Below, piece by piece: positions 15,035 to 46,078 of a DNA stretch of 64,000 nucleotides. The first letter of the stretch is position 1. Every line of letters begins with the position of its first letter. Under the pieces are notes generated by a model. It was not told the DNA's origin, did no database searches, and saw nothing but the letters and a program-made list of their open reading frames with translations. Both the position numbers and the translations under genes were made by a program. Source of the stretch: Marinobacter fonticola (GTDB lineage: Bacteria > Pseudomonadota > Gammaproteobacteria > Pseudomonadales > Oleiphilaceae); the NCBI RefSeq assembly GCF_008122265.1, contig NZ_CP043042.1:3844001-3908000 (forward strand), in the 5' to 3' direction.

Positions 15035-17572
15035 TCAGCTCTCGAGCTGACGCTCGACTCTTACCCGATCGAAGACCTCGATCTGATCGCCAACCTTGAC
15101 GTCATAACCCTTAACGCCAATCCCGCACTCAATCCCTTTCTTAACTTCCGGCACGTCGTCCTTGAAGCGGCGCAAGGATTCCAGCTCACCTTCAAAGATA
15201 ACCACGTTATCGCGCAGGACACGGATTGGTTTGTTACGGAAAACGCTGCCTTCGGTCACCATACAGCCAGCGACCTGACCGAACTTGGGCGAGCGGAATG
15301 TATCCCGTACGTCGGCGATGCCCACGATGTCCTCGCGGAACTCCGGCGCCAACATGCCGGTCAGGGCTGCTCGCACATCATCGATCATGTTATAGATGAT
15401 GCTGTAGTAGCGCAGATCGATGCCTTCCTGTTCCACCAGCCGCTTGGCCGACGCATCGGCACGCACGTTGAAACCGAAGATCACCGAGCTTGTGGCAAGC
15501 GCCAGGCTAACATCGGTCTCGGCAATACCGCCAACGCCGGAAGAGACGATCTTGACCTGAACTTCCTCGTTACCGATGTCCTGAAGCGCCTTGGTAATGG
15601 CTTCCAGCGAACCGCGCACGTCGGTCTTGAGCACCACATTGAGAGTCTTGACCTCGTCCTTGCCCATGTTCTCGAACAAGTTCTCAAGCTTGGCCGCCTG
15701 CTGGCGCTGCAAGCGCTGTTCACGCTCACGCTTCTGACGGAACTCAGCCAGCTCTTTCGCTTTGCGCTCATCGGCCACAACGAAGAACTCATCACCGGCA
15801 TCCGGCGTACCGTTCAGACCCAATACTTCAACGGGAATGGATGGACCAGCTTCTTTCACCTGGTCGCCAGTTTCGCTCATCATCGCCCGAACCTTACCGA
15901 AGTAGGCGCCGGCGACCAGCATATCGCCCTGACGGACGGTACCATTCTGAACCAGGATCGTCGCTACGGAGCCACGGCCCTTCTCCAGACTGGACTCGAC
16001 CACCACACCGGTACCCGGTGCTGTAGGAACGGCTTCCAGCTCGAGAATCTCCGACTGCAGCAGGACCGCTTCCAGAAGATCGTCGATCCCCTCGCCAGAG
16101 TGCGCCGACACCGGCACGAACTGGACGTCACCGCCCCAGTCCTCTGGGATCACGTCCATACCTGACAGTTCGTTCTTGATCCTGTCAGGATCCGCCTGCT
16201 CCTTGTCCATCTTATTGATCGCCACTACCAGCGGAACACCCGCAGAGCGTGCGTGGTTGACCGCTTCCTTGGTCTGCGGCATAACACCATCGTCAGCCGC
16301 AACCACCAGAATAACGATATCCGTGCTCTGGGCGCCTCGCGCACGCATGGCTGTAAAAGCCGCGTGCCCCGGAGTATCCAGGAACGTGATCATGCCGTGG
16401 TCGGTCTCGACATGGTAGGCGCCAATATGCTGGGTGATGCCACCAGACTCGCCAGCAGCCACTTTGGTACGGCGAATGTGGTCCAGCAACGAGGTCTTAC
16501 CGTGGTCGACGTGGCCCATTACACTGATAACCGGGGCCCGTCTGACTTTATCGCCCTCAAAGGAAATCCCGCTAAGCACTTCCTCCTCGAACGCATCCTC
16601 GCTAGTCGTCCTGGGTTTGTGACCCAATTCTTCGGTCACCAGAACTGCGGTTTCTTGATCCAGCGGCTGGTTGATCGTCGTCATGACGCCCATATTCATC
16701 AGCGTCTTGATCACGTCGGCGGCTTTGACAGCCATCCGCTGCGCCAGATCACCCACGGTAATGGTTTCCGGAATTTCTACTTCACGCACCATAGGCTTGG
16801 TCGGCTTCTCGAAAGCGTGTCTTTTTTGCTTGGGTTTCTTTTTGGCCCGCAAAGGCTTGCGCAGGGTGGTTTCCTCTTCGTCTTCCGTGAGGGCCACCGG
16901 CTCTACCGGGCGGTTGCGTGGACCACGATGGCCGGCCGATTTTTTCTTCGGCTTGCCGTCCTCGACCTCCTCCGGACGTTCACGCACTTTCTCTTTCTTT
17001 TTCTTAGGCTTGCGGTCCTTGGAATTCTCTTCGTCAGCCGGCGGAATGGGCATATCCTCCAGCGCTGGCTCAGGCACAACCTCATCCTCAACCGGCTCTT
17101 CGATAGCCGCTTCTTCTGGCTCAGGAGCAGACTCCGCGTCAGGCTTAGCCTCCTCGGCTACCGACACTGTCTCCTCAGGTGCCGTAGGTTCGCTGACCTC
17201 CGGCTGAATCGGTGTTTCCTGCGGTGCCTCTTCCGCTACGAGTGTTTCTTCAGATTCCTGCTGGGGCGTCTCGGTCCGCTTGATGTAAGTCCGCTTTTTG
17301 CGGACTTCCACGTTAACCGTCTTGGCGCGGCCAGCACCGCTGCCCGCCTTCAAGGTCGTCGTGGTTTTTCGCTTGAGCGTGATCTTGCGCGGATCGGCAT
17401 CGGATTCGCCGTGGTTTTTGCGCAGGAACGCCAGCAGTTGCTGCTTTTCATCGCTGCTGACAGCATCATTCTCAGAACGGGCTTTCAGGCCAGCCTCTAC
17501 GATCTGGCGCAGCAAGCGGTCCACGGGAGCGCCTACGTCATCGGCCAGCTGTTTTACAGTTACTTCAGCCAT
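15035..17572 (-). CDS. infB: Translation initiation factor IF-2
   Basis: GTPase of 845 residues that places initiator tRNA on the 30S subunit and drives subunit joining. It has an N-terminal IF2_N domain (1-50), a long charged Glu/Lys/Pro-rich linker (about 100-260), a second IF2_N domain (about 265-315), and the G domain with GHVDHGKT (353-360), DTPGH (399-403) and NKMD (453-456), then the beta-barrel and C-terminal fMet-tRNA binding domains. An AGGAGGA ribosome site lies directly upstream. It follows nusA by 18 bases. Internal starts producing shorter IF-2 forms are known in E. coli and could exist here. Confidence 0.97.
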
Positions 17573-17590: not shown

Positions 17591-19084
17591 TTATTCCTGG
17601 TCCTGGAACCAGGGCGCACGTGCGGTCATGATTAACTGGCCCGCGCGCTCTTCATCCATATCTTCAATTTGCATGAGATCGTCGACGGACTGTTCTGCCA
17701 AATCGTCCATCGTACGAATACCCATTCCAGCCAACTTAAAGGCCAAGGAACGATCCATGCCATCCATACTCAGCAAATCATCTGCCGGCTCGTTGCCCTC
17801 CAGGGCTTCCTCACTGGCCAGCGCCTGATTCAGCAGACGATCTTTGGCCCGGCGGCGCAGTTCGGTCACTGTGTCCTCGTCGAAGCCTTCGATTGCCAGC
17901 ATTTCATCCATGGGAACGTAGGCCACTTCCTCAAGAGAAGTGAACCCCTCCTCAATCAGGAAGCCCGCCAGCTCCTCATCAACATCGAGGTTTTCAGTAA
18001 AATTATTCAGCAAGCGATTATATTCCTGTTCCTGCCGCTCCCCCGCTTCCTCCTCGGTCATGACGTTGAGCGTCCAACTGGTCAACTCACTGGCCAGACG
18101 GACATTCTGCCCATTGCGACCAATGGCCTGCGCCAGGTTGTCCTCGGCAACAGCCACTTCCATGGTTTGGCGATCTTCGTCCATAACGATGGAAGCAACT
18201 TCCGCCGGCGCCATGGCATTAATCACCAGTTGGGCCGGGTTGTCGTCCCAAAGCACGATATCGACACGCTCGCCACCCAGCTCATTAGACACTGCCTGAA
18301 CCCGTGAACCACGCATACCCACGCAGGCGCCAACCGGATCAATGCGACGATCATTAGTTTTGACCGCAATCTTGGCACGCGAGCCCGGGTCACGAGCCGC
18401 GCCACGAATCTCGATCAGCTCCTCGGCGATTTCCGGCACTTCGATGCGGAACAACTCGATCAACATGGCGGGATTGGTCCGACTCAGAATCAACTGCGGA
18501 CCGCGATGGTCTGTGCGGATTTCCAGCAGCAGCGCGCGCACTCGATCGCCCATGCGGAAGGTTTCACGCGGAATCAATTGATCCCGGGGTAAAAGTGCTT
18601 CGGCGTTAGCACCCAGATCAACAATAACGTTGTCGCGGGTGACTTTCTTGACGGTACCGGAAACCAGCTCGCCTACTCGATCGCGGTAGCTGTCGACGAT
18701 CTTCATCCGCTCGGCTTCGCGAACTTTCTGGAAAATGATTTGTTTGGCGGCCTGAGCGCCGATACGACCGAAGGATACCGACTCCACTTTTTCCTCGTGG
18801 ACGTCGCCCGGCTGCAAACTCGTATCGATCTCTTCGGCTTCCTGCATGGTCAATTCGGTGCCCAAGGCCGGTACAGCCTCGTTGTCGACGACCAGCCAGC
18901 GGCGGAAGGTTTCGTATTCGCCGGTTTTGCGGTCTATCTGGACGCGAATATCCGCTTCCTCTTCTTCATAACGTTTCTTGGCTGCTGTAGCCAGGGCAAG
19001 TTCGATGGCCTCGAAAATGACCTCTTTTTCCACGCCCTTCTCATTGGAGACGGCTTCAACTACCAGCAAGATCTCTTTACTCAT
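17591..19084 (-). CDS. nusA: Transcription termination/antitermination factor NusA
   Basis: RNA polymerase-associated elongation factor of 497 residues that modulates pausing, intrinsic termination and rRNA antitermination. The N-terminal polymerase-binding domain is followed by an S1 domain ([20 protein letters not shown]), two KH domains ([16 protein letters not shown] and [12 protein letters not shown]) and two acidic C-terminal helix-hairpin repeats ([14 protein letters not shown] and [14 protein letters not shown]) that regulate RNA binding. It sits between rimP and infB. In E. coli NusA controls its own operon through leader terminators, and two such terminators lie upstream of rimP here. 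Confidence 0.97.
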
Positions 19085-19127: not shown

Positions 19128-19589
19128 TTACTTAAAAACCGGAACGATATTGGCTTTGTCGATACTGTCGATGGGAAGCAGATATTCGTGGTCATCCACG
19201 ATAACAATGACATCGCTTCCTTCGATTCCATTGAGGAGTCCCTCAAACTTCCGACGCCCCTCGAACGCCATACGCAGGCGAACACGAACCCTATGACCCG
19301 CCCAGGCCTCATACTGCGCAAGATAGAAAAGCGGGCGGTCCATTCCCGGCGAAGACACTTCCAGCGTGTACTCAGTTTGGATCGGATCTTCTACATCCAG
19401 CACACCACTGACCTGCCGGCTTACCGTCTCGCAGTCCTCAACGCTGATACCATTCTCTGTATCTTCGATGTAGACCCGAAGAACTGACTTGTGGCCCTGA
19501 GAGTGGAATTCAATCCCCCAACAGGCATAACCCAAGCCTTCGATTACCGGGACCAGGATATTTTCGAGTTGCTTTACCTTGGCTGACAA
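19128..19589 (-). CDS. rimP: Ribosome maturation factor RimP
   Basis: Assembly factor for the 30S subunit, 153 residues, with the family motifs [38 protein letters not shown] and the C-terminal KANIVP. I place the start at a TTG (19589-19587) with GGAG 11 bases upstream. No in-frame ATG exists near the N-terminus, the resulting [20 protein letters not shown] matches the family, and length equals E. coli RimP. Any start further upstream would run into the terminator at 19711-19740. It is first in rimP-nusA-infB-rbfA-truB. Confidence 0.9.
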
Positions 19590-19710: not shown

Positions 19711-19740
19711 AAAAAAAGGGCCTGTATCTCAGCCCTTTTT
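19711..19740 (-). terminator. Intrinsic terminator in the rimP leader
   Basis: AAAAAGGGC/GCCCTTTTT stem (19713-19721 with 19732-19740), 10-base loop, followed on the minus strand by a T7 tract. It lies 120 bases before the rimP start and about 170 bases after a strong promoter. It may be an attenuator for the rimP-nusA-infB operon. Confidence 0.75.
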
Positions 19741-19775
19741 CAAGCAATCGGGCCCTTGCGCCAGGCCCCTGAACC

Positions 19776-19798
19776 AAAAAACCCCTAATAAAGCGGGG
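19776..19798 (-). terminator. Terminator-like end of the candidate small RNA
   Basis: A short CCCC/GGGG stem (19782-19785 with 19795-19798) is followed on the minus strand by six T residues. The stem is short, so termination may be partial. Confidence 0.5.
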
Positions 19799-19907
19799 CC
19801 TTCTGAAGTCGTTGCGTGCCAGAAGCGTTTGAACCGCGACGCTTCCGCCGACAGACACCTGGCCTGTCTGAGCGGGTTCGGCTTACGCCGATGCCCACTG
19901 CAATAAT
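19776..19907 (-). ncRNA. Candidate small structured RNA or operon leader upstream of rimP
   Basis: A stretch of about 132 bases starts at a near-consensus promoter and ends at a T6 tract. It can form a long interrupted hairpin (19847-19857 pairing with 19865-19882: GCCGA/TCGGC enclosing CAGACA/TGTCTG) and a second hairpin (GAAGCG 19822-19827 with CGCTTC 19840-19845). No open frame with a ribosome site and no tRNA fold is seen. Its place corresponds to metY in the E. coli metY-rimP-nusA operon, but no initiator tRNA is present. It may be an independent sRNA or the leader of rimP-nusA-infB. Confidence 0.45.
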
Positions 19908-19913
19908 CGCCGG

Positions 19914-19942
19914 AGTATAAGGACGCCGACAAGACTGGTCAA
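19914..19942 (-). promoter_or_regulatory. Sigma70 promoter directed at rimP side
   Basis: TTGACC (19937-19942) and TATACT (19914-19919) on the minus strand with an ideal 17-base spacer. It lies just after the tRNA-Leu terminator, so it starts a new transcript. Confidence 0.75.
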
Positions 19943-19951
19943 GGACTGACC

Positions 19952-19982
19952 AAAAAAAACGGCTTGGTATTCCAAGCCGTTT
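19952..19982 (-). terminator. Intrinsic terminator after tRNA-Leu
   Basis: Perfect 11-bp stem AAACGGCTTGG/CCAAGCCGTTT with a 4-base loop and a T8 tail on the minus strand. It begins 6 bases after the encoded CCA end of the tRNA. Confidence 0.92.
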
Positions 19983-19988
19983 CAATAA

Positions 19989-20073
19989 TGGTGCCGAAGG
20001 CCGGACTCGAACCGGCACGGCTTACGCCACTACCCCCTCAAGATAGCGTGTCTACCAGTTCCACCACTTCGGC
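19989..20073 (-). tRNA. tRNA-Leu (anticodon GAG)
   Basis: 85-base class II tRNA reading GCCGAAG at the 5' end and pairing with CTTCGGC, followed by A and encoded CCA (19989-19991). The anticodon stem CTATC/GGTAG encloses a loop with GAG, and a long variable arm precedes the T-arm GGTTCGAGTCC. It closely resembles E. coli leuU, which also lies just downstream of secG. It begins only 7 bases after the secG stop, so it must be cut from a joint transcript. Confidence 0.95.
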
Positions 20074-45713: not shown

Positions 45714-46078
45714 GGGGACGACATGGCTTCGACGCCGGTTGCAAACCCTTGGGTGCATGTCGAGATGGCAGCCAATCTCGTTAATCCAAAGCTGCATTCA
45801 AATAGTCGCAAACGACGAAAACTACGCACTAGCAGCGTAAGCTGCTAGTCGTCCTGACTGGGGTGCCTGTAACCCAGAAGCAACACCTCAGGACGTCATC
45901 GCTTACAGGATGCTCTATCAGTCAGAGCTCACTGGCTGATGGCTAAGATATAAAGAGCTCGCCTCTTGCGCCCTGACCTTCGGGCCGCTTGAGGTTAAAT
46001 TAATAGAAGGAAGCTAAGCATGTAGATCTCAAGGCAGAGTACTGGCGGACGCGGGTTCGATTCCCGCCGTCTCCACCA
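45714..46078 (+). ncRNA. ssrA: Transfer-messenger RNA (tmRNA)
   Basis: 365-base tmRNA. The acceptor stem GGGGACG pairs with CGTCTCC, followed by A and encoded CCA at 46076-46078; the T-arm is GCGGGTTCGATTCCCGC. The resume codon GCA at 45808 opens a tag frame ending at TAA 45838-45840 that encodes ANDENYALAA, whose LAA end targets products to ClpXP. Upstream AGTCGCAAACGACGAAAACTA matches the E. coli region. It releases ribosomes stalled on broken mRNA with SmpB. A terminator follows. Confidence 0.97.

Follow-up and report, generated by a model that had tools for sequence, protein, structure and literature searches.

We regard it as fairly probable that the region between the tRNA-Leu gene and rimP of Marinobacter fonticola is a cis-acting, and presumably NusA-responsive, attenuator leader that carries a lineage-specific 5′ module and would release an RNA of ~130 nt at the first of its two terminators, T1. 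Among the readings that we weighed, attenuation is the most likely, and a small RNA acting in trans comes next. The feature had originally been noticed in a sequence-only reading of the window (the whole 64,000-nucleotide stretch of DNA that was analysed), and it is real and correctly placed.

Organization of the leader

The region is read on the minus strand, in the order secG, tRNA-Leu(GAG), its terminator, a promoter, a structured RNA, T1, hairpin P5, T2, rimP, nusA, infB, rbfA and truB. The upstream neighbour, tRNA-Leu(GAG) (19989–20073; predicted by ARAGORN and scoring 48.7 bits with the Rfam tRNA model), is followed by its own terminator, which the terminator scan identified as a 12-bp stem with a T-run (19956–19983; −18.3 kcal/mol). 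The sequence-only reading had placed a near-consensus promoter just after this terminator, and the promoter scan recovered it: TTGACC-N17-TATACT at 19914–19942 has 10 of 12 consensus matches and a G+C-rich discriminator (CCGGCG), and would start transcription at about 19907. Promoter-like sites are above the shuffle rate between 19300 and 20500 (two against 0.4, sd 0.6), and the terminator-like sites of the same interval, T2 and the tRNA-Leu terminator included, number four against 1.7 (sd 1.3). The −35 region lies inside a near-palindrome, GGTCAGTCCTTGACC (window 19937–19951), which is present even in family genera with unrelated leaders; in locus L052 its arms are kept and its centre is changed, and its left arm is changed in some Marinobacter.

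Downstream of the promoter, the segment 19907–19775 (133 nt) folds with −58.3 kcal/mol (z −4.74), and none of 200 shuffles was equally stable. Alternative structures remain when the window is folded alone. The hairpins of the structured RNA are P2 (19871–19899; −17.3 kcal/mol), identified by folding and covariation, P3 (19850–19868), a near-invariant 7-bp stem with a 5-nt loop identified by folding, alignment and pattern scan, and P4 (19818–19849), again identified by folding and covariation. In the window fold they are enclosed by a weak closing helix, P1 (19812–19903), in which UUGC (19903–19900) pairs with GCAA (19815–19812); P1-like helices appear in some folds of related leaders. The sequence-only reading had drawn two stable hairpins here. 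The stable structure is real, but the boundaries were wrong: 19847–19882, taken for one hairpin, actually joins P3 to the 3′ strand of P2 and to the first part of P4, and 19822–19845, although a real pairing, is only the inner part of P4 (19849–19818).

The T6 end that had been recognized at 19776 is that of T1 (19776–19804; CCCC..GGGG, −12.0 kcal/mol). Its 9-nt loop puts T1 outside the limit of the terminator scan, and the pairing of its helix is seen in the alignment. Hairpin P5 (19750–19768; GGGGCC..GGGCCC, −11.9 kcal/mol) lies between T1 and T2, and its GGGGCCTGGCG is seen repeatedly across the leader alignment. T2 (19711–19741; GGGC..GCCC with T7, −14.5 kcal/mol), directly before rimP, is the second intrinsic terminator of the earlier reading and was found again by the terminator scan. 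That reading also had rimP starting with TTG, which holds, but the start most likely lies at 19589 and not at the ORF start 19712, because the similarity to RimP sets in at residue 42 of the translation of 19709–19128 and because TTG-TCA-GCC-AAG or a close form occupies the site equivalent to 19589 in many relatives. The gene so defined encodes 153 aa (19128–19589; NCBIfam NF000927) and precedes nusA (17591–19084; TIGR01953) and infB (15035–17572; TIGR00487). The leader DNA has a single match in its own genome by DNA search and no match in the plasmid and phage collections. Elsewhere in the window, a tmRNA gene at 45714–46078 encodes the tag ANDENYALAA.

The three-hairpin module and its relatives

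DNA search matched all six of the six genomes of the window's genus, its own included, and at E ≤ 0.01 it matched 136 of 163 family genomes, a count that includes matches around the promoter and terminator only. We took 90 loci from 90 family genomes (L014–L103) and oriented 89 of them by tRNA-Leu, which was not found in the one dropped (L023). The leader could be parsed in 86 of these 89; L048, L053 and L102 did not match the parsing patterns, P3 being nevertheless visible by eye in the latter two. The P3 motif is present, with up to three substitutions, in 75 of the 86 parsed leaders. Another four (L057, L060, L061 and L065) are laid out alike but have a diverged P3, one (L069) has a loop insertion, and six (L044–L047, L050 and L051) have 5′ parts unrelated to the others. 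In these six, which come from other family genera, the gap is occupied by leaders of a different kind that also look structured; for the four that were scanned (L044, L045, L050 and L051) Rfam returned nothing but tRNA at E ≤ 1. In seven Marinobacter leaders (L080, L092, L093, L096 and L098–L100) the T1 loop is extended by a long additional sequence that looks like a hairpin.

The 80 leaders that were left when those with unrelated 5′ parts had been set aside were aligned, and 65 were kept at <95% identity. Our main alignment, A1, is a sequence-only MAFFT alignment of 52 of the 53 leaders shorter than 165 nt (L076 was left out). The sequence-only reading had named conserved pairing in relatives as a check, and P2, P4 and T1 do covary over these 52 leaders. 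The P2, P3, P4 and T1 helices were hand-written on A1 from one row, a definition that leans towards these sequences, and were compared with slid partners and with 500 shuffles, which do not keep relatedness. Paired cells amount to 87.5%, against 82.2% (sd 0.4) in the shuffles and 39.7–54.5% with slid partners; 148 cells are changed on both sides (74.5, sd 6.4, in shuffles; 47–91 when slid), and 21 pairs show double-sided change (15.2, sd 1.2, and 11–19, respectively). None of the five covariation measures was reached by any of the 500 shuffles, which ignore relatedness.

Double-sided changes occur in 11 of the 12 pairs of P2, in five of the nine pairs of P4 and in five of the ten pairs of the T1 helix, with 70.4%, 92.1% and 99.0% of cells paired, the low value of P2 probably reflecting a variable loop misplaced by MAFFT. 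Among 26 disjoint pairs of near relatives, 126 of 152 changed cells are still paired, against 73 of 107 with partners slid by −1 and 60 of 101 with partners slid by +1; the true structure and the −1 slide are separated by this paired share only, as double changes alone number 19 and 20. Covariation and the paired share of changed cells in near relatives together support P2, P4 and T1 as RNA helices. P3 behaves differently, with no double-sided change in its eight pairs, three of which never vary, and 93.3% of cells paired; its helix rests on near-invariance and single-sided changes. A leader peptide is unlikely, because the loops of P2 and P4 vary in length.

Our searches located the three-hairpin module in Marinobacter, in the window's genus, in Tamilnaduibacter and in a single MAG. 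A covariance model built on A1 gives 79.3 bits to the window and 70.1 to L052, both of which are in its training set, 56.3 bits to L049, which is outside it, and at most 24.3 bits to the 30 other loci given. In a sample of 390 genomes of the order, matches at E ≤ 0.01 were obtained, under strict filters, in at least 113, many of the weaker matches spanning the terminator end alone. Among the matches listed, 17 genomes reach 65 bits, all of them family members from genera g1 and g11, and the best score outside the family is 29.4 bits. In a collection of named genomes the exact P3 pattern occurs at 79 loci, of which 77 are in genomes labelled Marinobacter, one in Tamilnaduibacter salinus (L197) and one in an Actinomycetota MAG (L188), where the model score is 20.7 bits and RimP was not found. 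RimP lies 188–262 nt downstream of the pattern match in 76 of these 79 loci; the exceptions are L188 and two loci (L204 and L221) in which P3 is near the end of the fetched stretch. Rfam scans of the window gave no match above threshold to the module, and a literature search, in which most subscription papers were out of reach, returned no paper on such an element. We propose the module as a candidate new RNA family, which seems to be undescribed.

The close association with rimP, together with the single DNA match in the own genome, argues against a role in trans, in which an abundant RNA of ~130 nt ending at T1 would regulate other mRNAs or bind a protein, P3 being the active part of this RNA and rimP merely sharing its promoter. 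We consider this unlikely, although it would be consistent with the compact structure and its terminator end, with the near-invariance of P3 as opposed to the sequence drift in P2 and P4, and with a promoter that looks like those of stable RNAs. The rimP leader is also named among attenuator-derived ProQ-associated sRNAs in the accessible part of an earlier report (PMC5391140), but the own genome has no ProQ match, and a ProQ-bound sRNA was rejected on this ground.

The metY slot and the conserved core

The sequence-only reading had assigned the leader to the position of metY while finding no initiator tRNA in it, and both statements are borne out. ARAGORN predicts no tRNA between tRNA-Leu and rimP, and the Rfam tRNA model has no match there at E ≤ 5 or E ≤ 10. 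In another order sample, of 115 genomes, RimP was detected in 110, four of which belong to the family. Upstream DNA was taken from 40 of the 106 non-family genomes; the 40 represent 23 families and are mostly those with the better RimP scores. In 30 of these 40 wider-order gaps ARAGORN places a tRNA-Met before rimP, and every one of the 30 has an anticodon arm of the initiator type, GGGNTCATNACCC, a hallmark of initiator tRNA. Five of the ten gaps without tRNA-Met have no tRNA at all, two of these (L263 and L279) being cut by a contig end. By the same program, tRNA-Met is found in none of 112 family gaps, that is, the 89 described above and 23 of a second family set (in which L124 is also without tRNA-Leu, and from which L130, a partial match, was left out).

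The own genome has two initiator-type tRNA-Met genes in a region at 2.90 Mb. In this region (L112:1576–2340) the two genes, intact and with anticodon CAT, are interleaved with five degenerate, chimeric tRNA-like copies of ~129 bp, whose exact diagnostic pattern was found in the own genome only, among 61 family genomes searched. In other families, decayed tRNA-Met-like copies can be recognized by eye in the metY slot of L280, L282, L279 and L268; in L280, one intact tRNA-Met is followed by three near-identical degenerate repeats of ~82 bp.

One could imagine that the module itself is a relic of metY, a decayed and remodelled initiator tRNA without a role of its own. Its position in the metY slot, the weak closing stem and the GGTTCAAA stretch in P4 of the window copy, and the decayed tandem copies in the same slot elsewhere, as in L280, could be read in this way. 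However, GGTTCAAA is missing from the five other members of the window's genus, and descent of the module from a tRNA was rejected on the absence of any Rfam tRNA match in the gap of the window at E ≤ 10. Moreover, the compensatory changes in P2 and P4 indicate present constraint, so that covariation largely refutes the relic, which we consider very improbable.

What is shared more widely than the module is the arrangement around it. Counted by pattern and without a shuffled control, T2 occurs in 89/89 and 23/23 gaps of the two family sets and in 27/40 order gaps, T1 in 63/89, 21/23 and 37/40, and a promoter, by a lenient −35/−10 pattern, in 89/89, 15/23 and 23/40. By eye, many of the 26 gaps of the first set without the T1 pattern have a long or altered T1, and leaders of genus g4 seem to lack it. 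The family genera without the module, which make up the second set, keep T1, T2 and often a promoter-like site at the frequencies just given, and leaders of genus g3 have ~30 nt only before T1; the module would therefore not be needed for the basic attenuator. On these pattern counts across family and order gaps, the predicted conserved core is the terminator tandem, accompanied in most cases by a promoter; to this core, one lineage that has no metY in the slot has added the three-hairpin module.

Probable attenuation at the head of the nusA operon

The accessible text of Naville and Gautheret (2010; PMC2965389) ranks the rimP-leader (RF01770) as the most ubiquitous attenuator and describes it as a GGGc..gCCC terminator with a T-run, 4–130 nt before rimP, preceded in several Gammaproteobacteria by an upstream terminator with the inverse motif, CCCg..cGGG, and a potential antiterminator. 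In that text its discoverers report having found no larger conserved element, propose NusA as the regulator and put forward RimP feedback as a hypothesis. RF01770 is also reported in Piscirickettsia, in the part of the source at hand (PMC5955585). The window leader resembles the rimP-leader in its tandem terminators before rimP, in the succession of CCC..GGG and GGG..CCC, in the T-runs, and in position and gene distance. T2 (19741–19711) ends 121 nt before the TTG at 19589, and T1 (19804–19776) reads CCCCG..AGGGG, with an a in place of the c before GGG. It differs in having an extra conserved three-hairpin 5′ module, in that no single antiterminator was found, and in its RF01770 score of 21.2 bits, which does not reach the gathering score of 47, so that we do not file it as a member of RF01770. 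Among 16 other loci 10 match RF01770, all below the gathering score: L052 has 25.3 bits, and nine of nine further loci, four of which carry metY, have 29.8–38.5 bits. A match at E ≤ 1 is absent in six of seven loci scanned (L044, L045 and L048–L051), among them L049, which has the module. By sequence, structure and position, the T1/T2 half of the window leader is built like a known element; the three-hairpin half is the candidate new family.

For E. coli, the accessible parts of the respective papers report two terminators, t1 and t2, upstream of rimP, with transcripts that rise when NusA termination is reduced (PMC6511841), and RNase III cleavage between metY and rimP (PMC5371410). A rimP fusion has lower expression in a Rho mutant, again according to the accessible part of the source (PMC7815308), so that other controls of rimP exist. 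As far as these texts describe it, the E. coli metY-rimP-nusA-infB leader shares with ours the slot at the head of the operon, the upstream promoter, the two terminators before rimP and the downstream genes, and differs in that the window has no tRNA and a three-hairpin RNA where metY sits. In addition, the E. coli leader is reported to be processed by RNase III and controlled by NusA. The sequence-only reading had offered two alternatives, that a novel structured sRNA takes the place of metY or that this is the NusA-responsive leader of the operon, and each holds in part. A covarying structured RNA does occupy the metY slot, but 'leader' fits it better than 'free sRNA', because T1 and T2 are built as in the rimP-leader attenuator and because the element stays beside rimP (76 of the 79 named loci).

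We calculated the upstream pairing of the T1 5′ arm in 58 of the 65 leaders, the seven without a T1 pattern being left out. Its mean probability is 0.65, and it exceeds 0.5 in 46 of the 58. The best partner is P2 or the 5′ end in 20 leaders, the AGUUCUUGCAAC stretch in 18, P3 in 12, P4 in seven and elsewhere in one; partners differ between leaders, and no single conserved antiterminator was found among the 58. A GUUCUU hairpin that would block T1 fails by eye where T1 begins with AAAAGGCCCC or AAAAAGCCCC. Pairing of the P3 loop (GCCAGG) with CCUGGC downstream of T1, which would make a pseudoknot, was rejected on L057, L060, L061 and L065, in which the loop changes and the downstream site stays. 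GUUCUUGCAACA, which could be read as boxA-like, is missing from the window.

Under the attenuator reading, the promoter predicted from the sequence would start the leader of rimP-nusA-infB-rbfA-truB near 19907, and RNA polymerase would first make P2-P3-P4 and then meet T1, P5 and T2. Some of the transcripts would be terminated, at ~130 nt by T1 or at ~195 nt by T2, and the rest would continue into rimP-nusA-infB. By analogy with E. coli, NusA may strengthen this termination and limit its own operon. In the Marinobacter lineage the initiator tRNA gene that many relatives have at this position is absent, and the three-hairpin module fills its place. The module most likely stabilizes the released 5′ RNA and/or offers the near-invariant P3 as a binding face for the protein that sets termination, for which NusA would be the first candidate; this role of the module is the least certain step of the proposal.

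Structured protein-binding leaders and attenuator-derived sRNAs are known kinds of RNA element, and the window leader has in common with them a structured 5′ RNA, an intrinsic terminator end and a translation-related operon; it differs from them in that it yielded neither a known binding motif nor any rRNA mimicry. This bears on an autoregulatory leader in which P3 would be the binding site of an operon product other than NusA, such as RimP or IF2. A conserved hairpin in a variable scaffold is reminiscent of protein-binding leaders, and RimP feedback is the hypothesis put forward, in the accessible text, by Naville and Gautheret (2010; PMC2965389). However, the longest sense match of P3 to the own rRNAs is 7 nt for 16S and 8 nt for 23S, lengths at which rRNA mimicry by P3 was rejected, and we regard such a leader as improbable. 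In the complementary sense, P3 matches 9 nt of the own 16S and 10 nt of the 23S rRNA, and the stretch before T1 matches 9 nt of the 16S; with many comparisons and no null, this is probably chance.

Besides the attenuator reading, which we continue to favour, we tentatively consider that an undescribed RNA family of Marinobacter and its kin took the initiator-tRNA slot with a function of its own, whether through a P3 that senses NusA or another operon product or as a stable RNA of ~130 nt acting in trans. If only the attenuator matters, the module would still be a candidate new RNA family for annotation. As a tRNA slot that appears to have been refilled by a different structured RNA, with a large, conserved and covarying module in place of metY before the attenuator terminators, the leader would lend itself to comparative work on how termination in the nusA operon is set.
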